NCBI RefSeq assembly: GCF_040807025.1
Contig: NC_090967.1
Coordinates: forward strand, 6,936,001-7,000,000
Direction of reading: 5' to 3'
DNA from: Struthio camelus
Lineage: Eukaryota > Chordata > Aves > Struthioniformes > Struthionidae
Length of the DNA: 64,000 bases
In this document: positions 1,243-38,744 of the stretch, piece after piece
How positions within the stretch are numbered: the first letter of the stretch is position 1
How the letters are laid out: each line of letters starts with the position of its first letter
The notes under the pieces: model-generated
Told to the model about the DNA's origin: nothing
What the model saw: only the letters and a program-made list of their open reading frames with translations
The model's database searches: none
Position numbers and translations under genes: made by a program

Positions 1243-4200
1243 TTATTTGCTGTCTTCAGATGCTAGTTCAGTCTTCCACTTTTTCCTTTCTAGAATTTCT
1301 TCATCAAATATTTCTCTCTCCCTGAAAAAGAGACACATTAGAGTTCTGCAATAAAAATAACCCTACTACGTTAAAAGGGTGTAATGTGTTGGTATAACTC
1401 AGCAAGAATCTTCCTCATGTTTAATCATTTCGTTATTTAGAAAGAGAAAGTAGGTCTCACAGAGGAAGGGAGGATACTGACATCCAAGTGCACCTCCTTC
1501 TCTCATACTCATATTTTGCCTTATGAACAGCAAACTGGGAAGTAACAATTCAGAGAAAACACTAAAAATAAGGTACCTTTTGCTCACAGATGGTCCTTTT
1601 ATGTATTTCTCTTCTGCCTTCTTGTAATCTATGTCATCCACAGCAGATATCGCATAAATGATGGCCTACAAAAGGACTTTTAGTTCATTGATACTAGTGA
1701 ACAAAGACTAAACTATAACCACAATGATTTGAAATGGTCTCAGCAGGTGAGTACATTTTTGGAGTAAGATCTTCAACCACTAAAAAAACCTGGATGAAAC
1801 TGCTCATCATGCATTTAAAGCTCTCCAACACAAAGCATAAACTTGCCCTTTAACATACTTAGGAGAACATTTTAACAACTAGATTGAGATACTCTTAATA
1901 ATAATTTTGTTCCTACGGAAGATACTAGTGTTCTAATAGGTCCTAACAAAGACAGTAAGTCTGCAAAAGTATAACTAAAAAACAAACAAGAACCCCAAAA
2001 CCCCACCGAGATCACTTGCCAAAGGAAAAAACTATAGAAGCAACAGAAAAACTTGTAAGTTTTAGAAGCAACAATCAAGATATACTGAAAAGCAATCACA
2101 CTCTCTTTAAAACACCACACTACCTTAAGCCATTAGCGCAGAAAGGAGAAGCTTAAAATCAATATTTAGAATTATACTGGTGCATGTGTTCTCACATATA
2201 ACTGCTATTTTATTAAAATCAAGATATGCAGTACCAGCAGGAAGCTGGTAGTTACTAATATTGGGGCTTCCCTCACCTCCAACATATTTGTTCTCTGATT
2301 ACCAACATATACACATGGTTTAAAAGCCTTCAGCACTGATATTTTAATGCTCTCTGCTCAAGACATATATAGAGATTAAGCACAGTGTCAGACCCTTGAG
2401 CTTAAGGGTCCATGCCTCAAACTGGTGGGTAGGCCTCAATACACTTGTCCTGCTCAAACATCACTCAATTCCTGGAGAACATAACAAGTCAGTAAATGAG
2501 AATCACAACACACTAGTGTTATTTACTTACTTCAGGCAAAAGGACATCTGAAATAAACTTTATTCCATCTCCATTTATTCGATGCAGATTTCCAGTGTCT
2601 ATTTCATGATATACTTCCTTCAAGTAGTTTACCACAAGGTCCAGTTGTTCTTCATCTTCTAAATAAGTTTCAACGCAGGTCACATACTGACTTGAATTCA
2701 GGAATTCTTTCAGCCACCGGGATTGTTTTCTGCTTTTCAAAATAGCCAAAAGATGCTCTTCCGCCCCCTTAGTCTTCACTATAAACTCCACTATCTTTTC
2801 ATTAGCTTTATCCCTAGCAGCCCTTGTTCTGTCAGGAAGCAGTTTCTTGGAGGGCTTGCTAGGTGAAGTTTCTGATGAAGATTCTTCAAGCTCTTCCTCT
2901 GCTACATTTGGAAAGGTCATTTGGACTAAACCTTGAATACCTTCCTTTCTAACTGGATAGCCTGAAAGGAAAGCCACAATCACACATTTTTACATACATG
3001 TAAGATAAGGGGCTTTCTTGATAGGGGGAGAGGTCATTTTTCCTCCTTCCACTACGGAGGAGGAAGGAAAAAATCGTTTTGCCTTAAAAAAAGCAATTGA
3101 GAGTTGAAATTATGATAGGAGCTCTGAAATGAGCTCACTACAACCTGAAGTGACCAATTACTTGATTTAATCCAGCATTTCATCTTTAACAATCAATATT
3201 TACATCGCTTCCTCCATATGGTTTTTGTTGTGGAATGAAAATCCTATGCTATAATTATGCCATGTAGTAACTTGAACAGTATCCACTCACTGGGTCCAAT
3301 ATGTAACTCGACACATTCATCAACATTAGAGCTCAGTTTATCTACTAAAAGGAGAACACAAAAGATAACCTCACCACGAATTCACTTACTGATATCATCA
3401 GCAAAATATTCCAAGAAGGATCCCGTAAAAGAATGACAACCTAAAAAGCCCAAAACAGGGTTATTTATCAGTTTAACTAAGTCTTTGAAACAAAGTCGAT
3501 AGCCTTAATGTTACCATCTTTTTTCTGATCTATATCAGAATGGATGAGGTTGTCCAACTCATGTACTTACCTACTCTAATCCGATAGTCAGAAATCAATT
3601 GAATACACCACTCAATTTCTCGACAGTAAGCTTCTTTGGCTCGGTCCTACAACACAAGAGTCATTTGCCTTTTTTTTTTTAAAAAAAAAAAAAAGTAACC
3701 TACTGACATTTTTGGTCTAGGACATTAACCAGTTGACAAGTGTTAGCTATAATACACTCCTCTGGTAGTGAAAGTTGTATATTATATGAACATCTCCCCC
3801 CTCCACATTTGTATATACTTGTATGCATATCTTACTGGTAATACTTACTATTAAGTCCTGCTTTTCTTCACAATCAAAGTGCTTTAGATTCCTAAGAGAT
3901 ACTGAAAAACTTGATTCAACAAAGAAATACAGTTAGTGAATAAACACAGACGTACAACTTAACTGCCTCTATTCTCTCCAATTCCATCTCTCTCTGAAAA
4001 TTAGGTTTCACAAGCAATTCAACAATGGAGTTTCTAGTAGTTTTAGCTTTCATGACCAGCTAAAACTCAGGAATTTTTATAGCATGAGAAGCACTTGGTT
4101 TTAAGACAAAAGCAAGGGCAAGTCTATATTTTCTGAAATACTATCTTTTTAGAAAGTCTGGCCACCACACATTCAAACAAGTATCCAGCCCTTTTGTTAT

Positions 4201-7200
4201 TCCTCACACAAACGAGGCCAGTTAATTGTTAGCATGAATGCCAGCCTGTTTCCATCCGCAGCACGATAAAGCAAGCGGCTCATACCTGCAAATGCTAGCC
4301 TTAACTGGTTCCCTGCTTTGAGACCAACATTAGTTTTAACTCATGTTGCAATCACTCTGTACTAGGAGGAAAGTATAGAAGGCTGCCCAATAGACACCCA
4401 AGATTCAGAACCGAACCAAAATCCATATTTACCCTTTTGTCTTGTCATTTGTATTCCCTTCTATAAACAGCACATTTGCCTTTTTGTGTTTCCGCTTCAC
4501 TTTTTTTACCTGTTGAAGGGATAAAGTCTCATTAGCGTTCTAGAATCCTAATAACTTTAGGAAGCAGGAATGGTATTTCCATTAATACTATATAATGCAC
4601 CCTGTACATAAGTTATACCAAGATGAAAAATTAACTTTGAACTGGCATGTACAGCAAACTAGAGAAACACCCCAATGGAGCGTTCTCATTAGTCCATATG
4701 GACCTGTCCATTTTTAGTTAGTAACGGAACAGAACAGCTCTAGTGGTACAGGATTTAAAATACTTCAAGCCCAAGTAGCAATCCTCCACTTCAATATAAA
4801 GTATGTGAATCAACTACATTTATTTTTACACATTACAAAAGCACATTCAATTTACCTCTTTACCTTTGTTTTTGCCTCAGTTTCTGCTTTAGGAAACAAG
4901 TATGTTAGAAGTTAGGAAAAGCTCTATTGAAGTTGTTGAATATTTCCAAATCCATACGAGTCAAGAAAGGGCAGAAGACACTCAAAAACTTGGTAAGCTG
5001 TTCCTTATCAGATCTCTTACATTTTCTGAGACAGTAGCAAGTTGTTCTTACCACTGCTGGCCAATACGGATATCTTCGCAATTTGCACCAGACCAAAATC
5101 CCTTCTTCAATTGACTGTGGCTCTACGACTAAAAGAGTGGCAATTGTTTTTCTTTTCCAAAAAAGATGAGACAAGACAATTAACTCCCAACTTGTCAGCT
5201 TCCCTTCACACAAGAAGCATTCCACAGATTTCGCTCCAACACACTTCAAGTAAAGCAAACCTGCCCCACCCCAACTCATGTATTTCAAGTTTGAGCAAAG
5301 CTGGATTCACTTTCTAGAAAGGTTAGGTTCCACGAATGGAAGTTACTACGGCTTACCAACAAATCAGAAGCAGATGTTCTCTAAAAGCACACACTAATCT
5401 CGGGTGAGTAAACCTCAAACAGGTACACTCATGCCTTACCTTGATGTGATAGAATACTAGGAAGTTCTTCATCTTCTTCCTCTTCCTCATCTACCAGAGC
5501 TGAGAGGAGCGACAGGTTCTCTGAGGAACTTATCTTCAAAGACATATCAGAAGATTCCAATCCTGCCAACAGCAGCAAACACCAGCCATTAGAAGCAAAG
5601 GTATAAATGATTAAAACGATCAGCTTCAGACCACATGAGATACGTAAACATGAAAGTTAGCCTACAAAAAACGTGAATTACTGTAACACCAGTCTGATAC
5701 AAACTCTCAACATTCTTCACCTAGGTAAAGACTAACAACTTCCGTTCAGTTGTGCTACTACAAATTCTCCTTCCTAGAGGATCAGAAAGTAGACAGTTCC
5801 TGAAATTACGATGGGAAGCAGCAAATTCATGATAACAGCTAGAAATGAAACAAGACATCTACAAATAAATTCATCACAAAATGCTATAAGCCAGAAAAGG
5901 AGAAGCTCCGCAGCTTAAGCCGTGACTGGGATCATACTTATGCATCAACAGCAAAAGTAAACAAACAAGAAAAGGCTTGCTTCAGGACTCTGTACCAGCC
6001 TGTTCCTTTATAATAACATTATTTCATCTTAATGCTGACCTGCAACATTAACTAGATAGCATCAAAGACAAAATTCCATATGAAATTAGTAAGTCATCCA
6101 GTGACAGGCAAAAAACACCGATAACTATGATTTTTCGGTGCACAACACTAAACAGCTGCAGACAACCTAAATATGGCTTTAGTCTTTTAGCCACTATTAA
6201 AGCAATCACATTTTTTGTTTCCTCAAAACTTAAATAGAAGAATAAACTATTTTAGCATAAAACTACCAACTTCAGAACCTCATCAACCACAACAAAACCT
6301 GCAACTCTTCATCAGGAAGATGAAAAATAATGCTTGGGAATCAAGAGACATGGAATTTCCTCCTCCCCAAGAGGTATGCTCACCTTCATCTTCCTCAAAG
6401 TCAGGCAGCTGGAAGTCATTTACTTTATTATTCCTAAGCATGTGTGAAGTACTCTTGTTTTCCTCCTCTTTAAGCTTAGGGAGGAAACCATCAGAGATAT
6501 TTCCATGGTTTGAAGGCCCAGGTGAAGATTCAGGGCAATTCCTGCATTTCCTTTTTCTGCACGAAGACGCAGTTGCGTTGGTCTCTTGTTCTCTGTGTTT
6601 TAAATTCACTGACTTCTTTCTGTCTAATTTCTTTGCTAGACTTTCACTCTCGTTACTGATGCTGCTCTCCATGTTATCCGAGGCACATTCACAAGAAGAA
6701 TCCAGGACTGTCCTCCTAGGTTGACCTTTGGTGTTTGCCCTTCTTCTGACAGGTACTACTGTGTCAGACTTGCAGGAAATAGACACAGGATTACTTTCTT
6801 CAGTAAGAGGATGCACTTGATCTTCCCGGAAATCATTAATACACGATATGGGTGATCCTGCACCTCTTGGTCTTTTTCTTCCTTGCTTACTTTCCTCCTC
6901 CTTTGGCTTAAGTGAGGATTTATTTTTTGTCTGGGACTTTGGCAGCAGGCCAGGCTTGATTTTTTTCTGCCTTATTAGTGATTTCGATTCTGGCATTTTG
7001 TCATTTTTACTTTTCGGATTTGATGTATTATGCAAGTCCCCAGTCCTACGTTTTGAAGGTTTTGTTCCAGCTTCATGTGCTTTAGTGCCCTCTTCCAAAA
7101 TGAAAGAGTGTTTCCACTTTTGTTTTTTGGTATCAGTTTTCAGGTTGGGGTTATTTTGTTTGTCTCTCTTCTTCTTGGGAGCGTCAAACTCTAACTTTTC

Positions 7201-9516: not shown

Positions 9517-9650
9517 CGCGGCTTTCAGGCGCGAAACTCCGCGGCGGAGGCCTACCGGTCCCGGGAAACGCGCAGCGGCCTAAGGGCGGAGGCGCCCCGC
9601 CGCCCTTCCCGCCCCAACCGCGCAGCGAGGGGCCCGGGCGCCCCCCCGTC
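9517..9650 (-). other. PWWP3A: PWWP3A first non-coding exon (predicted, 5' end uncertain)
   Basis: The minus-strand sequence is GC-rich up to GCCGCG, followed by donor GTAACG (9511-9516) and a T-rich intron that leads to the acceptor at 9441-9442. The right boundary is a guess, set by where the CpG-island promoter motifs begin. Confidence 0.4.
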
Positions 9651-12590: not shown

Positions 12591-12635
12591 CTGCAGACCC
12601 ACACGGCCGTCTGGCTGGAGCTACCAGTAAGAGGA
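12591..12635 (-). pseudogene. Possible decayed remnant of the next kinase exon (LQHPWVTG region)
   Basis: The minus strand carries AGCTCCAGCC..CGTGTGGGTCTGCAG, loosely like the nucleotides for QALQHPWVTG in CAMK4. The frame has a stop and there is no donor. The position is right, but the similarity is too weak to be sure. Confidence 0.2.
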
Positions 12636-12758
12636 GAACTGCAGGACTGTGCGACTTTCCCACTTAATGCTCCGTATAAAAGAACCACTTCCCTTCATCT
12701 GCAGGTGGAGAAATTTCGGGCTTGTCCGCATTGGGATACCCAACGCCGGCAAACTCAC

Positions 12759-12886
12759 CAAGGCCTTGGCATTGAGGGAAACCTCGTCCCACCACGGGGA
12801 CACGAACTCATAGTCGCAGGTGAGGATGCAGCCGTACACGTCGTGGTCACCCCCATGGGTCGAAGAAGGGTTCAAAGCCGCAGAAC
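12759..12886 (-). pseudogene. CAMK4-like relict, G-helix exon with a 1-base frameshift
   Basis: The acceptor is CCTTTGCAG and the donor GTGAGT. The frame starts FCGFEPFFDPWG, hits an extra G in a run of five G (about 12852-12856 on the plus strand), and continues in another frame as GDHDVYGCILTCDYEFVSPW then WDEVSLNAKAL. Without that base the length equals human FYDERGDQFMFRRILNCEYY and the exit phase fits. It could be a real frameshift or an assembly error in a short G run. Confidence 0.92.
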
Positions 12887-12934
12887 CTGCAAAGGCGGCA
12901 GGGTGAGAGGAGCGGCGAGCACGGCGCGGCCGTC

Positions 12935-13365
12935 CAGCCCGTTCCCACGCCGCGGCCGTCCAGCCCGTTCCTGTTCCCACGCCGCGGCCGTCCAGCCCAT
13001 TCCCACGCCGCGGCCGTCCAGCCCGTTCCTGTTCCTGCGCCGCGGCCGTCCAGCCCTTCCCCTTCCCGCGCTGCGGCCGTTCATCCCCGTTCCCGCACGT
13101 GGCCGTCCAGCCCTTCCCCTTCCCGCGCTGCGGCCGTTCATCCCCGTTCCCGCACGTGGCCGTCCAGCCCTTCCCCTTCCCGCGCTGCGGCCGTTCATCC
13201 CCGTTCCCGCGCCGTGGCCGTCCAGCCCTTCCCCTTCCCGCGCTGCGGCCGTTCATCCCCGTTCCCGCACGTGGCCGTCCAGCCCTTCCCCTTCCCGCGC
13301 TGCGGCCGTTCATCCCCGTTCCCACACGCGGCCGTCCAGCCCGTTCCCGCGCCGCGGCCGAGGGC
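12935..13365. repeat. 57-bp minisatellite in an intron of the CAMK4-like relict
   Basis: The core unit starts GTGGCCGTCCAGCCC and contains TTCCCGCGCTGCGGCCGTTC. Successive GTGGCC copies at 13099 and 13156 are 57 bp apart. The left part (12935-13050) is a degenerate, shorter version. CpG-rich on both strands and stop-poor, so it creates false reading frames. Confidence 0.9.
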
Positions 13366-13422
13366 GCTGCTGGGACAGGCCGCAGGGAAAGCCGACCGCG
13401 ACGAGGGGATGCAGTTACTCAC

Positions 13423-13498
13423 AGGATGTACGTGATGACGCCCACGGACCATATATGCACTTCAGGGCCGTGCGGACCCCCACGGAGGATTTCAGGGG
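13423..13498 (-). pseudogene. CAMK4-like relict, APE / F-helix exon
   Basis: A 76-bp exon with acceptor CTTTCAG and donor GTGAGT. It reads PEILRGGPHGPEVHIWSVG then VITYIL, against human PEILRGCAYGPEVDMWSVG and IITYIL. The upstream split codon restores the Ala of APE. The near-invariant Asp of the F-helix is His. Confidence 0.92.
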
Positions 13499-14011
13499 CT
13501 GAAAGCACAGTTCGCAGTCAAAATGCCCCCTCCCGGATGGGGGCCAGGCGAGCGCCCGGAGGGACCCCACGCCCCGTTTCCCCCCGCACACACCCCGGGG
13601 ATGGCATTCCCGGCTGCGGGAACGCGGTGGTTCCCGCCGGGATCGCGGGTGCTAGCGCAGGTGCGGGAGGGACACCCGGCCCGACAGCCGGGGCCGGAGC
13701 AGGTCCCCCTTCGCCCCGCGCTGCCGGCCGTCCCCGCAGCGAGCCTCCCGCTGCGGTGCTCGTGCAACCTGCCGCGGAGAAAATTGCCCTCCAGAAATTG
13801 AATAAAAATATAATTTGCTGACAACGCGGCAGTGTGCCGCTACGCAGACAAAGATGAAACCAGCTAAAACCGATTAGCGACGGAGGCAGCGCCGCGCGGC
13901 TCACAGCCGTGCCAGCGACCCGCGGCGCACGGGAACGAAGCGCCCGGGCTGGGGCAGTCCCCGGGAAGCTCCTTGCGCGGCCGCAAGCTCTCCCCAGCGT
14001 TGGCCGCTCAC

Positions 14012-14086
14012 CGCAGCACGCCGGCGTCCCGCAGACGGTTTTCATGGTGTCGTGTTCGCCCGCTGTCTTGGAGAGCCCGAAGTCAC
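14012..14086 (-). pseudogene. CAMK4-like relict, DFG / activation-loop exon
   Basis: It reads DFGLSKTAGEHDTMKTVCGT then PACC, the same length as human DFGLSKIVEHQVLMKTVCGT and PGYC. The activation-loop Thr and the DFG motif are kept and the donor GTGAGC is intact. The acceptor at the phase-correct position reads GG instead of AG. An intact AG lies 17 nt further upstream (14104-14105), but its use would break the frame. Confidence 0.88.
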
Positions 14087-14238
14087 CCGGCAGGGACACG
14101 CGGCTGCGAAAGGGAGGGCGTCCGGGGAAGCCCTAGCGCGGCCCCGAGCTGCCGGCACCCGCTGCGGCCCGAGGAGCGGCGCGGAGGCGCTCGGCGCCGG
14201 CGGGCTGCCAACTTTCCGTGCGCGCTGGGCAAACCTAC

Positions 14239-14329
14239 CGCTTCTAAGGGCCGCGCCGGGGGAAAGGGCCGCGTCGAGCGGGTTCTCCGGCTTCGGGTCG
14301 CGGTGCACGACCCCGTTCTCGTGCCAATA
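14239..14329 (-). pseudogene. CAMK4-like relict, catalytic-loop exon
   Basis: A 91-bp exon after acceptor TGCTCTAG with donor GTAGGT. It reads YWHENGVVHRDPKPENPLDA against human [20 protein letters not shown]. The catalytic Asp, Lys and Asn of HRDxKPEN are still present, but both flanking leucines have become proline, which should disturb the loop. Confidence 0.88.
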
Positions 14330-15079
14330 CTAGAGCAAGAAGGAGGCAATGGGGGAAGGAAGGGAAAGGGAGAGGGAAAGCCTCCGCTTCCCGCGGCCAG
14401 CGCGCCCCCGGGCGCTACCGGCCCTTCCGCTCGCCGCAGCCCCCAAACCCCAGCTACTTCTTCAAAACCGCCCGAGCGCTTGCAGACACCGCCGCCTTGC
14501 ACAAATCGCCGCTTTTTCCGCCGCCAGCACTCTGCGCAGCTTCCCCGGGGGCAGACGAAGGAAATTTTCTCTTATGCGTTTCCATTTTTAAACCCTCCAG
14601 TTGCCATAGAAACTCCCGTTTCCCGCCGGCCCTCAAGGCGGAGAAGCGGTGCCCTTCCCCAGCCGAGCCCGGGTGCTCCTGCCGCTCTTCCGTCCCCTGC
14701 GCGACGGCTGCGGAGGCGGGGGCCGAGCCTGCAAAACGGCCCCGAGACGGGCGCCGAGCGCCGCCGGCCAAGGCTGCGCTGCAGGATGCAGCTTCTCCGC
14801 AGCCGCTTCGGGAGTTTCTCTCCCGAAGGAGGGGATGTCCTGGGGCCGCCGCCGCCACCGGCGGGGACGGTGCTCCCGCGTCGCCGCTCGGCCGGGCCCC
14901 GGCGTGTCCCCCGGGTGCTCCCAGCGCCTCCCAGCCCCGCGAAGCTGCTCTCAGCCCCCCGCCTTGCTGGCAGCCTGCGAGGGGCAGGAGGTGAGCGCGC
15001 CTGCGGTGCATCCCCAGCCCGGCGCTGCGGCAGCTCTCCGTGCGGGATAGCCGATGCTCCGACCCCGGCGGCACCGTAC

Positions 15080-15152
15080 CGCCACGGCTTCCACCATCTG
15101 CTCGACCTCGTGGGCTGCACCCCGCTGGCTGCGGGAACCCCTCTCCACGATC
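15080..15152 (-). pseudogene. CAMK4-like relict, alpha-E region exon
   Basis: A 73-bp exon with acceptor CCTTCCGCAG and donor GTACGG. It reads IVERGSRSQRGAAHEVEQMV then EAVA, against human IVEKGYYSERDAADAVKQIL and EAVA. The entry phase (one base completing Arg) and exit phase 0 equal those of the family. Confidence 0.85.
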
Positions 15153-15899
15153 CTGCGGAAGGCGAGCGCCGAGGCCCTGCCCGGCCGCTCGCCCCCCGCG
15201 CCGGCCAAGGGATGCACGAGCCCCCGGGGAAGGACCGGGACGTGGTCCCAGCTGGGCTCTGGGGTCTCATCCTTGCCCCGCTGGGACGGGGTCCGGACCT
15301 GCATCCCGCGGGATGCAGCGGCGCCGGCGCTCGCTCCGGGGTGCAGGGCAGGGCAAGGGGGGCGACTTACCCCCTTCCGCTGCCCCCCGCGGCGGGCGGG
15401 CTCGGGGCGCCGTAACCTGTCCGAGAGCTCCCCGCCGCCGCCAGCGCCCTCCCCGAGGCCGTCTCGACGCTCTCCTCCGGCTCGGTCCGCGAGGCAGGGC
15501 AGCGGCTGGCCCCCGGCCCGCCCGAGACCCCCGCTGCCCCCGGGGCGGCTGAGCTGGCTGCACCCAGCGGGGCACCCGAACGCCGACCGGGTCGCCCGGG
15601 CCTCGCGGGTCGGCAGCCAGCGGGTTGCCCTCCTCTCCCGTTTTGCCGCTCCTATGGCGGGGGGAAAAGGCGCTCCAAGGCGCTGGGAAGCGGAGACGCG
15701 CGTTGCCTTCCTCCTCCTCGCGTCCCCAGGCGCGTTACCTGCAAGAGGAGCTTACTGCTCCGTAGCCGGGCGAAGCCACCTCTGCCGCCGGCGCCTCCGT
15801 CCTCCCCGCCGACCGGCTCGCGGCTACCGCTGGAAATCGCACCGGGGCTCCCAGGCCGCTCGCATGCTTTTGGAAACGTCCCTCAGACTCTGTTTTGTG

Positions 15900-16400
15900 C
15901 CTCGGGGAGGCAGGAAAGAAACAGCTTTTTTTTTTTTTTTTTTTTAAGATATTATGCAGAGTGGGCCTGTCCGCACGAGCCCTTCGCGCCACTGCAGCAC
16001 ATCGAGAATTAACAGGTCGCTCTTAAAAATACGTCAAAATGCAGTTTTTTAATGGAAAACAGAGAATTTCATGGTTCTTAAGACTTTTGTGACACTGCGA
16101 ATTTCATGGGGCTTTAATCATTGCCTTCCCAGGCTGGGTGACAAGCCGTGATACCCTGCAGGGTGAGAGACACTATGTGGCAGCTTACTGCATTATAATA
16201 ATACACGGAAGCACTATAATTTTCCTATTAACTTCAAAAGTTTACAATCCTATTATCATCTGCTGTTGAGGTCGGTGCTGAATGATAGCAAACGTATAGA
16301 AGGCACCAATGTAAATAATGAAATGGAGTATCTTTAAAAAAAAAAAAAAACACTTGAAGTTGGGAGTGAGCAGAACCCTACAAAAAAATTTAGTGATTGA
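15900..16400. other. AT-rich intronic block within the CAMK4-like relict
   Basis: Stands out from its GC-rich surroundings, with a T-tract at about 15,925-15,945 and an A-tract at about 16,335-16,350. No coding similarity is visible. It may be an old unique non-coding sequence; nothing more can be said. Confidence 0.35.
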
Positions 16401-16514
16401 AATATTAAAACTGTCCAACCTGTTCTGCCTCGGTCTCGCCCGTAGCTCTGCCTTTGCCTGAAGAATAAAGGGCGCAAGGGGAGGGCAGAAATTGAATTTT
16501 CTGTTGCATTTCTG

Positions 16515-16600
16515 CTAATGCATCAGAGAGGATCTCTCCGTAGCTCCGAGTTTGCCATTCTTGTCCCTGATGTGGTTTTCTGTGGTGTCTCTGCAAAAAG
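16515..16600 (-). pseudogene. Possible decayed exon for the ETPTEIS..LFDR region
   Basis: The minus strand has GAGACACCACAGAAA followed by ATCAGG and, further on, an AACTCGG..GGAGAG string. These loosely follow the nucleotides for ETPTEIS and LVTGGE with small gaps. It lies in the interval where this exon must fall. The reading frame is not kept and splice sites are unclear, so this is a weak call. Confidence 0.22.
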
Positions 16601-17807
16601 CCTGAGCGACCGTCCTGGCCTAGGCAGGTCTTTTCCACCCGCGTGTCCTGGCGGGCGGTGGGAAGGGTCTCCAGGGCCGACGCACCCGGGCGCTGAAGCA
16701 GGCCCAGCCCTAGGGACGGCCCCGGCCAAGCCGACCCCGGCGTTTTGGGACAGGGATTTCCCCACATCATCCCACTTACAGGATATTTTCAGCTTCTGTT
16801 GGCTTTTCCTCTTGCAACAAATTCCCTGTGGGCTTGGACAACGGCAGGCAGCACTTCCACTTCGGATCTTCTCCGTAAGACGGGGAGAACGAAGGTTTAT
16901 TGCTCCAAGATCTTTCCCCTGGGCCAGGATCAGAAGGAGCTGTGCCGAGAGTTTTGAGCTATATACTGCAAAAAAATAACAGCGCCAGCACCAGACAGCG
17001 ATAATGCCGATTTCCTGGCAGTGCCTGGGCCGTGAAATCAATCCGTGCGGGCTCCCTCCTCGCAGGAATCGCAGCCCTGCAGAGCCAGCGCGCGGCGGCA
17101 CGGAGGTAGAGCTGCCAGGTGGCTTTTTGTGCTTTTTCTAAAGCTCTGGTGGTCTCCGAGATGCATTTGTAATTTGGCAGCAGAACTAAGCGGCGGGGAA
17201 TAAGCCTTTTTGGCAGCGGGCAGGAAGGAGGGAGCTGGCACGAGGCGGGGGAGCCCCCGCAATCACACCCCTGCAATCACACCCGGGCCGACACGGCGGC
17301 CCCGTCTCTGCTGACACCTTCGGCAATTAGATCCGCTCCCGGGGACTGCAAATTGAGCTGCCGTTATCCGCCGAGCGCTGAGCTGGAGCAACGCCGCCCG
17401 GCCGCGCCGGGGAGCAGAGTCGCCGGCACCTGCGGCCGGTGCTCGCCTTTTATCTTCCCTTGCAGGATTCATTACAGACGGGCAATTTGCTTTGGTGCTC
17501 ATTTCATCTCCTCGATGGAAATTGCTTCCCAAATGGAAATCTCGGGCCAGCAAGCGGGGAGGGTGGCGAAGGGGCCCCGGCCCTCGACGGCAGAGCGGGG
17601 AGCTCAGCCCCCCTCTCCGGTGCTTGGTGCCCTGAGCCGGCGACCAGATGCCCTGAGCGCCTTTAAAAGCATCTGTCCTTGCAGATCCAGCTGCGTTTCC
17701 CCCTTCCCCGACTGACCCGGCGCAGGGCCGGCCGGCAGCAGCCGTGTTTGGGGGGGACCCATTACGGGAACTGGAGCTGCCAGATGAGCCGCAACATCTG
17801 CACTCAC

Positions 17808-17870
17808 GATGTCGGGGTGCGAAAGCCGCAGCAGGACCCCGATCTCCGTCCTCACAATCTTCTTGTCAAT
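17808..17870 (-). pseudogene. CAMK4-like relict, DKKIVRTEIG exon
   Basis: This is a 63-bp exon with acceptor TTTTCAG and donor GTGAGT, phase 0 at both ends. It differs from human CAMK4 at only two of 21 residues (Ile for Val at position 1, Asp for Asn at position 20). This is the best-preserved exon and the anchor for the family call. Confidence 0.93.
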
Positions 17871-18256
17871 CTGAAAAGCAGAGGAGCTGTCACCATCGCT
17901 GCTGGCTCCAGCCCTGCCGCCGAGCACTGTCCCCTGCCCGGCTCCCCCATCTCTCCCAGGACGGATTTTTGCAGCAGCAGCGAAACAGACGCAGCCAAAC
18001 CCCGAGCGGCTGCTCGGGCGGGAGCCTGCTGCACCCCCAGCCCAGACCCTGGCTCGTCTGCCCACAAACGGACCCCGAAACAGCTGGGAAAATGCCCGGC
18101 ATGGGGCTGACGGCACCTTGCCCGTGCCGGTCCCCCCGCGCTGGGCAATGCTGGGTGCTGACCTGCTTTCGGAGGGGAGCAGGTATCGGGGGCTGCGCGG
18201 CACCCCGCTAGCTACCAGCACCCCGCTGGGGCCGCCCTCGCCCCGCGGACACTCAC

Positions 18257-18301
18257 CGTCTTCTCCAGTGTCTGGGCAGCGAGCCGCTCGGGAAGCGAGC
18301 G
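18257..18301 (-). pseudogene. CAMK4-like relict, ATP-lysine exon (shortened)
   Basis: The exon ends RLAAQTLEKT at a perfect donor GTGAGT (18251-18256) in phase 0, as human ALKVLKKT does. The lysine expected from ALKVL is absent or replaced by Gln. About half of the exon (human GATSIVYRCKQKG) is not recognisable, and no good acceptor AG is present; a pyrimidine tract ends in CGG instead. The call rests on position, phase and the short LEKT match. Confidence 0.55.
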
Positions 18302-20233
18302 CCGAGAGGAGGGGAAAACGGGAGCGACTCGAGCGGCTGAACGTGGGAACGGGGATCCCAGGGCACCGCGGAGGCCGGCGGCGCGCGGGACGCCGGCGCG
18401 GACCGCCAGGCAAAGCAGGGCCTGCGCGTTTTCAGAGGAATTTTTTTTCCCCCTCTTGTGTTCAACATTTTCTATGAAATTTTTGTTTTGCCAAAAAATC
18501 ATTTGGAAACAAACGACAGCTGGAGTTTGGCATGGGGAGCGGGGAAAGAGGTAGCTGTCACCCCCTACTCCTACTGCTCCAGAAAACGGGCAGGATGCTT
18601 CAATACAAACCCAAAACGGCATCATTGCTGCGCTATTGCAACGGCAACGCGTCGCCGTGGGAAGAAAAGAGGCGAACGTTTTGCAGCAGCCCCGGCAAAG
18701 CTCTCTCCGAGCCAGGGCGGGGGGGTCACTTTACTGCTAGACCCGATTTCCAATTGCCCTGGACGGTTCGCAGGAAAACAGCAGCGCTTTGCCCTGCTGC
18801 TGGCCTTTCGGCACCCAGCGCCTCCGTGCGGGCGCGTTTCTCCCGGCCGCGGCACCTCTCGCCCTCCCGCCGCTCCGCCTGCCGCTTCTGCCCGGACAGT
18901 TTGCAGCCCGGTTCCTACCGCTAACAGGATCATTTAAAAATCATCAGCTCGGCGCGTGAGAGGCGCTCGGCTTTGCTGGGCGGATAAAAGGCGGCCTTCG
19001 CCCGTGCCCGACCCCGGGAGCAGCCGGAGCCCAGGCCACGCGCAGCCCCGGCCCCGCCGGGACAGCCCGCTCTGCGCCCCGAAAACACCCGCGCTCAACC
19101 TTGACCGCGACGGGAGGAAACTGCGTTTGCTTTACCGACGGACTGGAGAAAGGTCGAACAACGGGCTCTGCCGAGGAAGCCTGGCCCGGCTCCTCAGGCA
19201 AGCGTGAAACGTGCGGTATTGGGACGGGGCGGCTGCGCTTTTCCTTGCGCTGCGAGGAATTATCCCCCCAGCTGCTCGTTTTCTTGTTCAATCCAATTCG
19301 TCTTTGCAACTGATTTCTGCAATATTGCGAAGCCGTCCTTCCCGCACGTGATAAATACCGCTTGCCTCTGCTCGTTTGTCTGATAACGGCCTCGATACCC
19401 TGCCTTATGGATTTCTTTTTGCCTCCCCCCCTTGCTTCCCTTAAATCGAGCTCAGTGATTCAACGCCTGATTAGAAGCGGCGGCGGCGGGCGGCCCGCTC
19501 GGTCGAGAGGCCGTTCCCAAGCCGAAGAGCTGCCACGGGTCGGCCGGGATTTGAGCTCTGCAGTCGCCCCGGGCCCGCAAAGATGCTTTCCGTCTAGTTC
19601 GCGCAGACGCGCAGAGAGGGGCAGGCTGCCGACCGGCGCAGCGCCGGTGCGGCCCCCCTTCCCGACGGGCTCGCCGGAGCCGACAACGCGTGCGCCTTGG
19701 CTGGGCGCTCGCCCGGGCCCCAGACCTCCACCAGCCCGCCTTCGGGGGCAGCACGCGCCCGGGGGCCAGCCAGCCGCCCGGCCCGCGTCCCCCTGTCCCC
19801 GGCGCAGCTCTGCCGGGCAGGCGGGACCAATCCAGACCCGGGAATAACCCCCCCGCCCGGGGGGGGACGTGCCTCCTTCGCCGGGTCCCGCGCTGTGCAA
19901 AGCTCATTGCCAAACTAACTAAAACCCTTGGGCCGATCGGAAAGGAGCCGGGTCTCGCCGTGAGCTCGCTCTCTGCCGGGGGGGGAAACACGCAGCTCCG
20001 GGCACGCGGCAAGCCCAGGCCGCCCCCGCCGAGCCCTCGGCACCCAAAACCTCCGCTGCAGCGTCGCGACGGACCCCGCGCCCCAGCTCATGCTCGGCGT
20101 CTCCATCCATCCATCCCTCCATCCCCGATCGCACCCTGCCCTAGGCGGGACGCGGCCCCCCCACCCCGCGCAAGCACGGCTGCTGCCCCCGCTGCGCGCC
20201 CGACGCCGCGCCGGCCCCGCGGGCAGCCGGTAC

Positions 20234-20325
20234 CTGCCCAGCTCCGGGCCCACGACGTAGAAACCTCCCAGGGCTGCTTCGTGGCGGGACCCGTCGAGCC
20301 AGCATCGCTGCCCGGCTTGGACGAG
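20234..20325 (-). pseudogene. CAMK4-like relict, N-terminal exon
   Basis: The frame reads CWLDGSRHEAALGGF then YVVGPELGR, against human YWIDGSNRDALSDF and FEVESELGR. It ends in a split Arg codon at donor GTACCG (20228-20233), the same place as in CAMK4. No in-frame ATG occurs upstream before a stop codon, so the start is missing or lay in another exon. The left half of the Gly-rich loop (ELGRG) ends here. Confidence 0.7.
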
Positions 20326-21084
20326 GGCGTTTTGGAGGCCGCGGCGAGGGCGCTAATCTCCCGTGCGGCGTTGGAGAGAGGGGGCTCGAACGCGGCTGCT
20401 CCCCGACGCGTGCAGATGGCCCGGACCAAAACCCATCCGGGGGATTATCGAGTGGGGTAAAGTCATTCCCGTCAGGCAGGCAGCGCCTTTTTTTTTTTCC
20501 ATGAAATACCCCTCTGCCTGCCTTCCCTCCCTCTGCTTTTCACACCAGTCCCCCCACAGTCCCTTTTTTCCACCCCGTTACATCCTTCGGCAGAGCCTGG
20601 GCAGGCCGGACCCCGCAGGCAGCGCCCGGGCTGTGCCCCTCGGACCGGCACTGCGGGGCATTTGCACCCCACGTCCTGCACTCGCCTTCCTAAATGTCGG
20701 TCTCGGGAGCGCTCGCAGGCACTCGCTCAGTTCTTGCAACTTGAGTAATATTTGGGTTAGATTTTTTTGGGACCAAAAGCATACCGTTAGCAGCGGCGTC
20801 GCAGTGCAGCAGACGTGCTCCCCTCGGCGCTGCCTCATCCTCGGCGCGGGACGGCTCTGCGGAGAGCCGGCGCGGGTGGCGGGGGCCGCTCCGCACGGGC
20901 AGAGCCAGCAGAAGCAGATGAGCGCCCGCAGCCCCCCAGGCCTCCACGCTGGCCGCGGACCCTCGCAGCAGCCTGGGCCCTGGCGGGGCTCCCAGTGGGG
21001 CGAATCCGGAAGGATTTTGATGCTTTGCTCATCGGCGCAGCGCTCTGCAGCCCCGGGGTGCGGGGACGCGGGGGGACACGAGGG
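20326..21084. other. GC-rich flank between relict kinase and 41-bp minisatellite
   Basis: Holds no gene that I recognise. A short CCATCCATCC tract lies just to its left (about 20,103-20,121). Long open frames entering from the right are caused by the neighbouring minisatellite. Confidence 0.5.
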
Positions 21085-22400
21085 GATGCGAGGGATGCAG
21101 GGAGAGGAGGATGGAGGCACCGGGGGGTGCGGGGGGTGCGGGGAGAGGGGGATGGAGGCACCGGGGGGTGCGGGGGGTGCGGGGAGAGGGGGATGGAGGC
21201 ACCGGGGGGTGCGGGGGGTGCGGGGAGAGGGGGATGGAGGCACCGGGGGGTGCGGGGGGTGCGGGGAGAGGGGGATGGAGGCACCGGGGGGTGCGGGGGG
21301 TGCGGGGAGAGGGGGATGGAGGCACCGGGGGGTGCGGGGGGTGCGGGGAGAGGGGGATGGAGGCACCGGGGGATGCGGGGGGTGCGGGGAGAGGGGGATG
21401 GAGGCACCGGGGGATGCGGGGGATGCGGGGAGAGGGGGATGGAGGCACCGGGGGATGCGGGGGGTGCGGAGAGAGGGGGATGGAGGCACCGGGGGATGCG
21501 GGGGGTGCGGGGAGAGGAGGATGGAGGCACCGGGGGATGCGGGGGGTGCGGGGAGAGGGGGATGGAGGCACCGGGGGATGCGGGGGGTGCGGGGAGAGGG
21601 GGATGGAGGCACCGGGGGATGCGGGGGGTGCGGGGAGAGGGGGATGGAGGCACCGGGGGGTGCGGGGGGTGCGGGGAGAGGGGGATGGAGGCACCGGGGG
21701 ATGCGGGGGGTGCGGGGAGAGGGGGATGGAGGCACCGGGGGGTGCGGGGGGTGCGGGGAGAGGAGGATGGAGGCACCGGGGGATGCGGGGGGTGCGGGGA
21801 GAGGGGGATGGAGGCACCGGGGGGTGCGGGGGGTGCGGGGAGAGGAGGATGGAGGCACCGGGGGATGCGGGGGGTGCGGGGAGAGGGGGATGGAGGCACC
21901 GGGGGATGCGGGGGGTGCGGGGAGAGGGGGATGGAGGCACCGGGGGGTGCGGGGGGTGCGGGGAGAGGGGGATGGAGGCACCGGGGGGTGCGGGGGGTGC
22001 GGGGAGAGGGGGATGGAGGCACCGGGGGGTGCGGGGGGTGCGGGGAGAGGGGGATGGAGGCACCGGGGGGTGCGGGGGGTGCGGGGAGAGGGGGATGGAG
22101 GCACCGGGGGGTGCGGGGGGTGCGGGGAGAGGAGGATGGAGGCACCGGGGGATGCGGGGGGTGCGGGGAGAGGGGGATGGAGGCACCGGGGGATGCGGGG
22201 GGTGCGGGGAGAGGAGGATGGAGGCACCGGGGGATGCGGGGGGTGCGGGGAGAGGGGGATGGAGGCACCGGGGGATGCGGGGGGTGCGGGGAGAGGGGGA
22301 TGGAGGCACCGGGGGATGCGGGGGGTGCGGGGAGAGGGGGATGGAGGCACCGGGGGATGCGGGGGGTGCGGGGAGAGGAGGATGGAGGCACCGGGGGGTG
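21085..22400. repeat. 41-bp G-rich minisatellite, 32 tandem copies
   Basis: The unit is ATGGAGGCACCGGGGG, then (A/G)TGCGGGGGGTGCGGGG, then AGAGGGGG or AGAGGAGG. ATGGAGGCACC occurs from 21111 to 22382, exactly 31 intervals of 41 bp, so no copy has gained or lost a base. Copies differ mainly at two or three A/G positions. Because 41 is not a multiple of 3, three frames on each strand stay open, which produces spurious proteins of 500-900 residues. The plus strand is strongly G-quadruplex-prone. Confidence 0.97.
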
Positions 22401-22519
22401 CGGGACCAGGGATGCCGAGCGCGGGGACCCTCCCAGGCAGCATCACTGCCTGGCGCCGCTTTCCCGGCTGGCTCGGCCGTGCCACCACACGGCACGTCGC
22501 CGTCACTGCACCCGCCAGC

Positions 22520-31489: not shown

Positions 31490-32045
31490 AACCCCATCGC
31501 CATCCCCATCGCCATCGCCATCGCCATCATTATCGCCATCGCCATCCCCATCGCCATCCCCATCGCCATCGCCATCGCCATTGCCATCGCCATCGCCATC
31601 GCCATCCCCATCTCCATCACCATCGCCATCACCATCGCCATCGCCATCCCCATCTCCATCCCCATCCCCATCCCCATCGCCATCGCCATCCTCATAGCCA
31701 TCCCCGTCCCCATCCCTGTCCCCATCGCCATCGCCATCGCCATCACCATCGCCATCGCCATCCCCATCTCCATCCCCATCCCCATCTCCATCACCATCAC
31801 CATCGCCATCGCCATCCCCATCTCCATCCCCATCCCCATCCCCATCGCCATCCCCACCTCCATCGCCATCGCCATCGCCATCCCCATCGCCATCGCCATC
31901 GCCATCCCCGTCCCCATCGCCATCGCCATCGCCATCGCCATCGCCATCGCCATTGCCATCCCCATCCCCGGCCCATCCCCGTCGCCATCGCCATCGCCAT
32001 CCCCATCCCCCTCGCCATCACCATCGCCATCCCCATCCCGCTCCT
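31490..32045. repeat. CCATCG/CCATCC hexamer array
   Basis: About 90 mixed units of CCATCG, CCATCC, CCATCT and CCATCA, with occasional CCGTCC and CCACCT interruptions. Open on both strands, giving false low-complexity proteins (His-Arg or Met-Ala type). Confidence 0.96.
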
Positions 32046-34496: not shown

Positions 34497-37400
34497 CTAC
34501 GAGCCCAGCAGAGTCCAGGCGACGGGCACCACGGCGAGCACGGCGTGCGGGACCCTGAGGCTGCAGCACGAGTTGTTGCTGGTGAAAATAGGCTCCGGGG
34601 ACTCGTAGAGGGAGTCGTCTAGGAAAGAGGGAGGAGAGGGAGGCGTGAGCGGGTGCTGAGCGCCGCCGCGGCTGCCCCCGCGCCCCCTCCCGCGCTGCCT
34701 CACCCTCAGCTTTTGCATCCCGCGCTCCTGGCTGCTTTTCCCACGGGGAACCCAGGTAAAACGGCCGAGCGGCGAGGCCCGGGGTTGGGGTCCCGCCGGG
34801 GACGGGGACGGGCGAGCCTGCGGCACGAAGCCCCCCTCCCCGAGCAGCGGCTCCAGCACCTCTCGCGTTACCGCAGCCCTTCCTCTCTGCTGGGCGCCGG
34901 CTCGATAAATCCCGCACAGTGTTAAAATACTAAAAAATAGCATCGGGAGAGACTTCCAACCGCCCCCCCCCCATTATGTCCTAGTCCTGAACCAAACAGA
35001 ATGATTTTTTACAGATGGTTTCATTATACTGAGTTTTATTTTAAAGCCATGCAAATAAAAAAAAAAAAGAAAGACATCCTTTTAAACGGTGACATTTCAC
35101 AGGCACTCAGCCCTTCCCCAGGGAGAGCCGCTGCCATTTGCTAATTACACGTTAACAGGAGAAGAAAATTATTAATTTGTTTTTTTAAATGGCTGAGTTA
35201 TTTGATTCTGAAAAGTAGCCGCTGTGCAGAGATTATCATATATATCTATATATTTTTTTCCCATCAGAAGTACAGCGGCAAACGTGGGCCGCGCGGGAGA
35301 CGTGTCTGCCCCGACGGCGGAGAGCGGGGAGGCGGGCCCGGGGCAGGGGGGGTCCCGCAGAGGGGCGCTTCGGCCAGGGTGCAGGGCCGCCCCCCCCACC
35401 CCCCCCAATCCCCAAAACCCCAGCAGAGGAGACCGGGGAGCCTCGGGGAGCAAGGGTGGGCTCCTTTCCCGCGGGGACGTCTCCCTGCAACCTCGGAGGG
35501 CGAGCAGAGGCCTGGCGTTTTCGGTGCATGTCAGGGGGAGCAGCAAGCGATGGCCGCGGGACCGAACCCCCCCCCCCCCGGCCCCCCGCCGCCGTGCAAG
35601 GGCTCCGGCGCGCGCCCGCGCTTACTTGTCGGCCGAACGTAAACCTTCAGCTTCAAGCAGGGCCGGTCGACCGTGTTAGGGGGAGAAGCAGCTGGAGAGG
35701 GAGAAAAGCAGAGCGACGTGAGCCAAGCAGCGCCCCGAGCCCCGCTCTGCCCCCTCCTTCACCCCCTCCCCGGCTGGCTTTAATATTTCTATTTACTATT
35801 TTGCAACGAGGCGCCCGCTGGGCTCGGGGCCCCCGGCCGCTCGCCCCCTCCGGCCGCCTACAAGCGCGACGGCATCGCCTGCCGGACCGGAGCGGCTCCT
35901 GCCCCGTCTCTGATCAACGCTCCAACCGGTGTCAGAAGCCGCCCGACCCCGGGCGGCGCGTTTCTGCCGAATCGTCCCCGGCTGCATGTCCTGGCTGCAA
36001 AAAAACGTCTGCCGAGGCGGGTTTCACGGCTGCTAGCGGCTCCCGCCACGCGAAGGGGGCGAAAGCGGGACGCTGCTTGCGTCACGCCGCGAGAGCATCG
36101 CGGCGGCCGTGAATGCCGGGGGCGCGGCGGAGGGTCGCCGGGGCCGTTCGAGCAGCCGCTGGAGGGGAACGCTTTGCAATTAAAACGGTGCAAAGCCAGG
36201 AGGGGAGGAGAGGGGGTTAAACAGACGGGGCGAGGGGGGCGAAGGGAGCCGGGCGGGCGGCCGGCGGCGCCGCTGGCCCTGGGACTGAGGCGCTCTGAGA
36301 GCCCGGCGCTCGCGCCGCGCGGGGACCATCCTGCCGGGAGAACGGCCTCGCGCGCTCCTCCTCTTCGGGGTCATCTCAAACGAATGCCACAGCAGCATGA
36401 AACATCCATCGCCAGCCTGCTCGGCCGCGGCCCCCCGGGAAGAGAGCCGGGCAGGGGGCGCATCCCGCGGGCGGCGCGGAGGACGAGCAGGAGGGTGGCC
36501 ACGGGGACCGGCCCGGGGAGGCAGGCGCCTCCGGGTGCTTCGCTGTCAGCCGGCTCCAAAGTTTGGCCCTGCTTCGGAAAAGCCCTTTGCAGCCCAGCGG
36601 GCGAACTGGTGGCCCGTCCTGCTGCAGGGGGACGCGCGGCGGCCCCGGAGGGAAACCCCCGAAAGCATGCGGGGGGATCGTCTAGGGCTGCGGTGCCCCT
36701 CACGCATCCTCCTGCCGGTCACTGCCGAATCACGCAAAACCACCGCGCTACCGGCGCCGCGAAGCGCCTCTGTCGGGCTGGGGAGGGGTTTGCACGACGG
36801 GCACAGCGTGCAAACCGCGCACAGCGTGCAAACCGCGCACAGCGTGCACGATGTGCAAACCACGCACATCGTGCATGATGTGCAAACCCTGCACACTGTG
36901 CAAACCGCGCACACCGTGCACGACACGCACACCGCGCATGACAGGCACACCGCGCACACCGTGCGCGACACGCACACCGCGCGCACCGCCGGAGCGCTGG
37001 GTCCTGGCAGCTTCTGCCCGGTCGCCCGCGCTGCTTTGGGCGGTGAGAGCCGCCGGGCGCCTGGTGCCTCTCCCGTAGCAGGCGAAATGGAGATGAAAGC
37101 ACAGAATAAAAACCATACTCATTGGGAGAGATAAAGGGCGTAATTGCAGTAATTATCTCGGTGGAAGTCCCCTCTCAGCAGGAGAAAAACGTAATATTTG
37201 TATATATGTTTTTAAAGGAACTGCATTTTCTTTTCTCTTTTTTTGGGACTGAAGACGGGGAGGGAGCACTATTGGCGTCCAGGTTAAAGCGGGAGGGGGA
37301 GCGGGACGGCGGCGGCCCCGGCCGGCTCCTGGGCCTCCCGGCAGCCGCCTTCCCCAGGGACCTTTGTTGCACACGTAAGAACAGTTTTGGCACAGCGACG

Positions 37401-38496
37401 CTGGGGGGGGCACAGCCAGCGGCTGCTGCACATCGTCTCGCTCTTTTGTTTTTAATCCCCCCCCTCCTTGCCGTCCTTTCTGCCCCGTGTCGCAGCCAGC
37501 CCGGGAGGGGGTCAAGCGGCGGCGAGACGCCGGCGGGCCGGGGGGCAGCGGGTGCTGCCGCCGGCTCCCGAGCGTGACCCGGCGCCGGGGCGCGGACCCC
37601 GTCTCGCCGCCTGCGAGGTTAATGGCGTCCCAATTTGCCAGCTCGAGGAGGAGGTAATTTCTTTTCTTTCATGTCTGCTAAATGCGGCTCCTCCAAGAGG
37701 CGTAATTTCTCATGTTCCGCATGACGGGAACTCTAACCGGTTTAGCAACGATCAGCTTCACCATTTACTTCGGTGTAATCGCTCCCTAACGACGTTACGA
37801 ATTAAAAAAAAATAAAAAAAATGAAACGGGGGGGGGGGGAGAAGGAGAGGGAGAGAGAGTTGTAGACGCAGTTCTTTCACGAGTGACATTTTACGGGGTG
37901 GGGGGGGGGGAATGGTAATTTAATATAGATAAAAGGAACAAATTAAGTGGGCTGAAAACAGATGCTTTAGGAAAAAGGGGGAGAAATAATAAGAACGACA
38001 GCCAGGCCGGTCAGCTCCCGAGCAGGGCGAGAGGCATCCCTGCCTCCCCGCGACGCTGCCACGTGCTGCTCCTTCACTTTCGTTTTTCCACCCTTTACCG
38101 CCCGTGCGGCGCCCACTGCCTGGTCCCAGCCCCATCAGCCGGTTTTCTTCTTCCTTTTCCCCCCCCCCCCTCGCCCCCCCGGCTCCAAGGGGCTCACACT
38201 CACAGATGTAGTAGTAGTCGTGGCCCGGCCGGAACTCGAAGCCCAGCGAGAAGGGGGTGAAGAGCTGGAACTTCTCCGAGAACTTCAGGGGTCCGCTGGG
38301 GGCGTCGGGCCGGTTGCACTCCCAGCGCTTGAAGCCCTTCTGGCGGTGGTCGCAGGACGCGTGCCCCTCGTAGTTGACCATGTAGAGGACGTAGCGCTCC
38401 ATCCTGTCGGCGGGCACCGGCTCCTCATAGTGCGGGCAGTAGATGTCCAGGTAGTCGTTGATGCTCACCTCCACGGTGTAGTCCCCGCGGTGGAAC
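34497..38496 (-). CDS. EFNA2: Ephrin-A2, coding exons 2, 3 and 4 (exon 1 outside the window)
   Basis: A GPI-anchored ligand for EphA receptors; in chick it is a repulsive cue in the retinotectal map (established). Exons on the minus strand: exon 2 38204-38496 (293 bp), exon 3 35626-35691 (66 bp), exon 4 34497-34618, all with GT-AG borders and matching phases. The exon lengths are those I recall for the ephrin-A family. Exon 2 encodes most of the receptor-binding domain: [34 protein letters not shown] and [20 protein letters not shown], with its conserved cysteines. Exon 3 encodes [20 protein letters not shown]. Exon 4 has the linker and GPI signal: [14 protein letters not shown], then the hydrophobic tail [18 protein letters not shown]. 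The signal peptide and first strand (YAVYWNRSNP) belong to exon 1, which I could not find up to 64,000. No damage is seen. Confidence 0.97.
34619..35625 (-). other. EFNA2 intron 3
   Basis: AT-balanced between about 34,915 and 35,270, with GATTTTTTACAGATGG, GCTAATTACACG and ATTAATTTG motifs that may be regulatory. GC-rich elsewhere, with C runs near 35,395 and 35,570. No exon. Confidence 0.6.
35692..38203 (-). other. EFNA2 intron 2
   Basis: CpG-rich on the left. A GTGCA-type tandem array lies at 36,790-36,990. AT-balanced blocks at about 37,080-37,255 (GGCGTAATTGCAGTAATT) and 37,610-37,800, and poly-G/A tracts near 37,830-37,915. No exon or RNA gene recognised. Confidence 0.6.
36790..36990. 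repeat. GTGCAAACC/GCGCACA tandem array in EFNA2 intron 2
   Basis: Degenerate units of about 9-18 bp built on CGTGCAAACCGCGCACA. Largely alternating purine-pyrimidine, so a Z-DNA-type structure is plausible. No coding role. Confidence 0.85.
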
Positions 38497-38744
38497 CTGC
38501 GGAGCAGAGGGCGGCGTGAGACAGGGGCTGCCGCTGCCCACCGCGAGCCTAAGCCTTGGCTTTAAAATCCTCCCCCCCCCCCGGCACCCCTGCGGCCGAG
38601 CCCCGTGCCTGGCACGACGCTGGGGAAACCGAGGCGCGAGCGGCAGCGGGACGCAGCGCTCCCAAACCGCGGCCCGGGGAGCGAGCCCCCCCCCCGGCGC
38701 GGCGCCCGGCCCCGCTGCCCCCCCCCCCGGCATTACGCTCAGCG

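Follow-up and report, generated by a model that had tools for sequence, protein, structure and literature searches.

The window analyzed here, a 64-kb stretch of ostrich DNA, contains seven clear exons of a CaMKIV-family kinase (e1, e3, and e5–e9), collinear on the minus strand at positions 12759–20330 (Table 1). A preliminary description had placed them between EFNA2 and PWWP3A, and this is borne out in the ostrich genome: both flanks were found, and the gene order along the contig (C26) is APC family, RPS15, DAZAP1, GAMT, NDUFS7, PWWP3A, relict, EFNA2, the APC-family gene being APC2 by its place. Of the at least eight minus-strand exons it claimed, seven are certain and the order was right; the remaining two (e2 and e4) are tentative stubs. 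The peptides it quoted occur in the relict exons, and the minisatellite said to split them was recovered.

Table 1. Features of the kinase relict and its flanks, in window positions
Feature	Position	Strand	Description
Flank, PWWP3A C-terminal exons	1282..5096	-	Found with human query
Relict exon 9	12759..12886	-	128 nt (CAMK4 127); GDHDVYGCILTCDYEFVSPWWDEVSLNAKAL in second frame; E 4.5e-14
Relict exon 9 frame break	12849-12847	-	TGA in first frame; second frame afterwards gives GDHDVYGCILTCDYEFVSPWWDEVSLNAKAL
57/58-bp minisatellite	12920..13363	.	Within e8–e9 intron of relict
Relict exon 8	13423..13498	-	76 nt; APEILRGGPHGPEVHIWSVGVITYIL; E 2.5e-8 with P0139; Pkinase E 6e-5
Relict exon 7	14012..14086	-	75 nt; DFG and activation loop; GG replaces AG before exon; E 1.7e-7
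Relict exon 6	14239..14329	-	91 nt; catalytic loop YWHENGVVHRDPKPEN; E 7.6e-8 with P0139
Relict exon 5	15080..15152	-	73 nt; RIVERGSRSQRGAAHEVEQMVEAVA; E 1.7e-4 with P0139
Tentative exon 4 stub	15417..15436	-	GGELSD; GT donor in expected phase
Relict exon 3	17808..17870	-	63 nt, same as CAMK4; IDKKIVRTEIGVLLRLSHPDI; E 4e-7 with P0139
Tentative exon 2 stub	18257..18283	-	LAAQTLEKT; GT donor in expected phase; Gln at ATP-lysine place
Relict exon 1	20234..20330	-	ACG at orthologs' start site, TPSSKPGS, frame break, WLDGSRHEAALGGFYVVGPELG; GT donor next
Flank, EFNA2 exons	34500..38501	-	Ephrin domain 38196-38501; found with human query

A tblastn search of the window with the crane ortholog (P0139) returned eight pieces representing the seven exons (E 4e-14 to 1.7e-4), all on the minus strand, in collinear order and lying within 12756–20301. 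Any other match reached at best E 0.054 in the window and 0.019 in a 90-kb stretch including the flanks, and the best E in the reversed window was only 0.21. When 11 exons were compared with 200 shuffles each, seven scored above every shuffle; e2 (182/200 equally high), e4 (21/200), e10 (105/200), and e11 (6/200) did not. Downstream of relict exon 9, the search for e10–e11 yielded nothing believable, and a candidate e11 alignment at 9613–9524 was rejected, being of low complexity and equalled by those 6 shuffles. The missing e10–e11 could also reflect a rearranged 3′ end. An absence of kinase similarity in a profile search had been named in advance as grounds for refutation, a test that the relict survives only weakly: in Pfam, three of the seven relict exons, searched singly, matched Pkinase weakly, the best at E 6e-5 and none above the curated cut-off, and the same single-exon searches of PDB gave 0 matches.

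Exon plan and splice phases follow CAMK4 nearly as closely as had been proposed. Five of the six internal exons have the same length in the relict and in ostrich CAMK4 (relict/CAMK4, in nt: e3 63/63, e5 73/73, e6 91/91, e7 75/75, e8 76/76), and the sixth, e9, is off by one (128/127). GT follows all nine pieces, both stubs included, and of the six internal exons only e7 lacks a preceding AG. Exon 1 (E 3.6e-6 with P0139) matches the bird consensus at 18 of 23 residues, and exon 3 does so at 20 of 21.

The preliminary description took the ostrich copy to be dead or dying; it is dead, by several independent lesions: the start codon is gone, the reading frame is broken twice, one splice acceptor is lost, the ATP-lysine exon is eroded, catalytic residues are altered, and the 3′ part is missing. 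The catalytic loop reads HRDPKPEN for HRDLKPEN, the conserved Asp of DMWS has become His, and Lys has become Gln in the tentative e2 stub; DFG and the activation-loop Thr are retained, and no calmodulin-binding exon was found. The features of a functional CaM-dependent kinase (ATP Lys, HRDLKPEN, DFG, activation loop, and calmodulin-binding stretch) are therefore not present together. At 110 sites invariant among 35 intact sequences the relict is altered at 20, and four intact birds differ from the crane protein at 2–10 of 201 sites in total. Relative to the bird consensus, the relict is identical at 154/201 sites, which simulated neutral change over 190 codons fits at ~0.12 per site; rates of 0.1 and 0.15 are compatible as well, but 0.08 and 0.2 are not. 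At bird rates this amounts to tens of millions of years, perhaps 60–100 million, a rough guess biased by the use of recognizable exons alone.

Intact orthologs, "CAMK4-like" or CAMK4L, are present in the database for fowl, duck, Neoaves, turtles, squamates, crocodile, and platypus, and likewise for frogs, coelacanth, ray-finned fish, and cartilaginous fish, as the preliminary description had foreseen. Crocodylus porosus, Anolis carolinensis, Dendropsophus ebraccatus, and Pristiophorus japonicus have entries for both CAMK4 and CAMK4L. Rows were sorted by motif pattern, the first search giving 116/120 CAMK4L, 3 CAMK4, and 1 unclassed, and the other 78/93 CAMK4L, 1 CAMK4, and 14 unclassed; 16 of 303 rows had no class under the pattern. 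Each CAMK4L motif is present in 123 to 161 of the 166 CAMK4L-type rows, many of which are fragments. In the 93-row search, entries from Tetraodon and Salmo trutta bear the label Si:ch73-60h1.1. The expectation that automatic annotation would easily miss the gene needs qualification, since it is held in many other species as "type IV-like". That mammals lost it was too broad a claim: no therian row occurs among the CAMK4L matches listed, and going by these the gene seems to be missing from therians, but platypus keeps it, so that the loss is ascribed to therians and not to mammals. Intact copies retain the kinase core, the activation-loop threonine, and the calmodulin-binding stretch, and on these grounds, by analogy with the family, they are most likely working calcium/calmodulin-dependent kinases that an upstream CaMK kinase activates. 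In PDB, an intact ortholog is matched best by CAMK4 chains (e.g., 2w4o).

We built a tree from 35 intact proteins, chosen out of the 303 returned, plus the relict. It splits CAMK4L from CAMK4 at 100/99 and groups the relict with six bird CAMK4L at 99/99, bearing out the proposal of an old gene that lies beside, and not inside, CAMK4. The relict branch is very long and was placed next to hummingbird, a pairing that is surely branch attraction; a neognath-only CAMK4L clade was not rejected in the AU test (p 0.108). Together with the P0139 search and the intact relatives, these groupings support the original identification as a CAMK4 paralog, and they place the relict, as the CAMK4L ortholog, in a group beside CAMK4. 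That it is a unitary pseudogene, the ostrich ortholog of this old CaMKIV paralog, we hold at a probability of about 0.94; its putative status as sole copy is based on a genome search with a human CAMK4 query (119/459 candidates scored), in which the closest exon-size matches beyond C40/C41 and the window were 60–70% identical.

Sharing its family and exon plan with CAMK4, the relict might be taken for a decayed duplicate, segmental or retro-copied, of the ostrich's own CAMK4. A processed pseudogene was rejected because the relict keeps introns with GT/AG ends, and a duplicate of any kind is scarcely credible: identity is higher with crane CAMK4L (153/201) than with ostrich CAMK4 (126/200), and residues shared with bird CAMK4L, such as VVGPELG, GDFGLSK, FFDP, and ILTCDYEF, are absent from ostrich CAMK4. 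A topology uniting the relict with the CAMK4 of ostrich and quail was rejected (AU p = 0.0007), which disposes of the species-specific duplicate that the preliminary description had named as a refutation, and so was one uniting it with all 14 CAMK4 (p 0.021). It is also very improbable that the locus still works in altered form, as a pseudokinase or truncated product whose frame breaks are assembly errors. Exon lengths and most splice dinucleotides are kept, and most exons have no internal stop; yet such errors cannot jointly explain the 20/110 invariant changes, the ACG start, the lost acceptor, the eroded e2 and e4, and the missing e10–e11. The seven exons hold only one in-frame stop, at the e9 break, but simulation at the fitted divergence gives a 17% chance of no stops, so their scarcity does not speak for use. 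Changes are somewhat rarer at invariant sites than at others (20/110 vs 27/91, p 0.066), and exon-to-exon differences in decay, as a signal of selection, were not significant (p 0.23).

The CAMK4L/CAMK4 split predates the parting of cartilaginous and bony fishes, and the two are most likely copies from the 2R genome duplications, one by EFNA2 and the other on the EFNA5 chromosome; both the tree and the EFNA2/EFNA5 pairing fit. Ostrich CAMK4 (P0001) is intact on C40 at 26.03–26.20 Mb, open over ten exons, and ephrin domains adjoin the relict on C26 and lie at 29.58 Mb on C40. Contig sizes hint that other birds may have CAMK4L among the same neighbors: chromosome-size bird CAMK4L records lie mostly on contigs of 4.9–8.8 Mb (ostrich C26 is 8.0 Mb), with Dryobates (12.4 Mb) and Amazona (32.1 Mb) as exceptions, and bird CAMK4 records are mostly on contigs of 49–178 Mb. 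A different early duplication is an unlikely source, although the trees have no close outgroup and the two tried, distant ostrich kinases with end branches of 9–10 changes per site, were too distant to give a usable root. Against it stand both paralogs in cartilaginous fish, ray-fins, and tetrapods, a CAMK4L branch order that follows the species despite some weak forks (coelacanth with tetrapods 86/68), and the pairing of EFNA2 and EFNA5 with CAMK4L and CAMK4. In the ostrich lineage, CAMK4L would have decayed where it stood, losing its start, frame, one splice site, and catalytic residues; intact CAMK4 may cover its role.

CaMKIV is commonly handled as a one-gene family. Judged from titles and abstracts, we found no paper on a second CaMKIV gene, and in the part of PMC5389105 drawn on here CAMK4 is the only one named. 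A second, old CaMKIV gene is present in vertebrates as far apart as cartilaginous fish, birds, and platypus, and the ostrich carries its fossil. The gene is ancient and little studied, lost in some lineages, and apparently working in many others, sharks, rays, chickens, and platypus among them. Findings on mouse and human CAMK4 consequently cannot be carried over to chicken, frog, or fish without allowing for a paralog, and CAMK4L losses become datable.

Among known genes, CAMK4 (PDB 2w4o; ostrich P0001) is of the same kinase family and exon plan as the relict but forms a separate clade, and its ostrich copy is open where the relict is broken. Nearest in sequence and tree are the orthologous genes that NCBI names "calcium/calmodulin-dependent protein kinase type IV-like" (P0139, P0135, P0190, P0244), whose copies look intact whereas the ostrich copy is broken. 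STK33, as described in PMC4509753, is likewise a CaMK-group kinase; it was lost as a unitary pseudogene near the base of birds, with remnants in neognaths that bear indels and missing exons. It mirrors CAMK4L, being functional in palaeognaths and dead in neognaths, whereas for CAMK4L it is the neognaths that keep an intact gene and the ostrich that has a dead one. If CAMK4L died in the palaeognath ancestor, which we propose only tentatively, the two genes would represent a reciprocal loss within the CaMK group at the deepest divergence among living birds. Were therians to have lost CAMK4L independently, it would also offer a natural knockout series for the second, unstudied CaMKIV of vertebrates, which perhaps acts in motile cilia or neurons.

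We compared the window, C26:6936001–7000000 of the 1.45-Gb ostrich genome, with P0139, an intact crane protein of the CAMK4-like family (CAMK4L), an old paralogue of CAMK4. This identified eight collinear minus-strand pieces with E values from 4e-14 to 1.7e-4, which correspond to exons 1, 3, 5, 6, 7, 8 and 9 of a broken kinase gene, numbered after CAMK4. The best place outside these pieces reached E 0.054, and the reversed window, employed as a control, gave a best E of only 0.21. Stubs of exons 2 and 4, each non-significant alone, lie at their expected positions, and both are followed by a donor of the correct phase. Neither exon 10 nor exon 11 was found on searching from position 12756 down to 3000. 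We read this relict as the dead ostrich orthologue of CAMK4L.

Positions of the relict, of tandem arrays in the window, and of CAMK4 and an ephrin gene elsewhere in the ostrich genome
Feature	Sequence	Position	Strand	Details
Relict kinase gene	window	12759–20330	minus	extent ~7.6 kb
41-bp GC-rich minisatellite	window	21082–22404		32 copies; immediately upstream of relict exon 1
CCATCG hexamer array	window	31494–32037		~91 copies; lies downstream of the final EFNA2 exon identified
54-bp tandem array	window	53431–54279		
Roughly 100/197-bp tandem array	window	57784–58838		
CAMK4	C40	26.03–26.20 Mb		exons found span about 168 kb
Ephrin gene	C40	29.58 Mb		probably EFNA5, by position

Multiple lesions interrupt the relict. 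ACG occupies the place of the start codon, and a frame break in exon 1 separates TPSSKPGS from the conserved WLDGS. The stub of exon 2 encodes Gln at the place of the ATP-binding lysine, with the remainder of that exon unrecognisable, and exon 4 is almost entirely gone. At the exon 7 acceptor GG stands in place of AG, and use of the nearest upstream AG would add 17 nt; exon 9 contains a TGA together with a frame break. No calmodulin-binding exon was found. Among 110 sites invariant across 35 intact CAMK4 and CAMK4L proteins, the relict is altered at 20, including the DMWS Asp and the HRDLKPEN Leu.

An improbable alternative is derivation from CAMK4 itself. The exon plan of the relict is close to that of the ostrich gene: exons 3, 5, 6, 7, 8 and 9 measure 63, 73, 91, 75, 76 and 128 nt, against 63, 73, 91, 75, 76 and 127 nt in ostrich CAMK4. 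Phylogenetic analysis places it elsewhere. In a tree rooted on CAMK4, with the root between CAMK4 and CAMK4L chosen rather than found, CAMK4L forms a clade (100/99) and the relict groups with six bird CAMK4L proteins (99/99). The AU test rejected placing the relict with ostrich and quail CAMK4 (p 0.0007), and likewise with all 14 CAMK4 sequences (p 0.021). Within CAMK4L the branch order is cartilaginous fish, ray-fins, coelacanth, frogs and amniotes, with some forks weak, such as that uniting coelacanth with tetrapods (86/68). The relict branch is 2.1 and a neognath-only clade of bird CAMK4L gave p 0.108; the position of the relict within bird CAMK4L is not to be trusted. An outgroup tree with two distant kinases yielded no usable root.

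The protein spliced from the CAMK4 exons of the ostrich genome matches P0001, the ostrich CAMK4 record, at 100% over its full length. Matching CAMK4 exons and an ephrin gene are present on both C40 and C41, with scores equal or nearly so, a pattern that would fit either a pair of sex chromosomes with little divergence or two haplotypes.

Relatives of the CAMK4L type, assigned by pattern, are widespread. Of the 93 proteins recovered with a 40-residue query containing exon 9, 78 were of this type, and among the best 120 of 7980 matches to P0139 the count was 116, of which 77 hold all five motifs asked for. Named carriers include fowl, duck and many Neoaves; Chelonia, Anolis, Pogona, snakes, Crocodylus porosus and Ornithorhynchus; and frogs, Latimeria, gar, bowfin, Polypterus, teleosts, Callorhinchus and a skate. 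No therian or palaeognath CAMK4L occurs among the name-bearing rows listed, some rows being nameless. Each row is a 90% cluster whose other members are unnamed, so a palaeognath CAMK4L may hide within one. Absence from therians, among the matches listed, is better supported, though not proven, because a therian CAMK4L should outrank the CAMK4 rows near the end of the P0139 list. In two frogs (P0012/P0268 and P0017/P0302), CAMK4 and CAMK4L lie on contigs of equal size and may share one chromosome.

Searching with sequences of neighbouring genes, we found the order on C26 to be an APC-family gene, RPS15, DAZAP1, GAMT, NDUFS7, PWWP3A, the relict and EFNA2. From its place, the APC-family gene is probably APC2, and human 19p13.3 has the same order of these neighbours. 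In human 5q21-22, EFNA5, CAMK4 and APC are near one another. The pairing of the relict and EFNA2 on C26 with CAMK4 and the ephrin gene on C40 is the pattern expected from a 2R block.

In most of the CAMK4L proteins listed, the kinase motifs are retained together with the activation-loop Thr and the calmodulin-binding stretch. A PDB comparison of P0139 gave the CAMK4 chains 9fqr and 2w4o as its best matches. Judged by sequence, CAMK4L would be predicted to function as a calcium/calmodulin-dependent kinase. A Nature 2025 study (PMC11779644) locates CAMK4 to radial spokes 1 and 2 in the axonemes of mammals. CAMK4L may have a similar role. CAMK4L carries automatic database names, and a literature search, with most subscription papers outside its reach, found no paper on it. 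In a published survey of genes absent from birds (PMC4290089), a term search of the main text returned neither CAMK4 nor EFNA2. The nearest precedent is STK33, which is reported to be functional in palaeognaths and a pseudogene in neognaths (PMC4509753).
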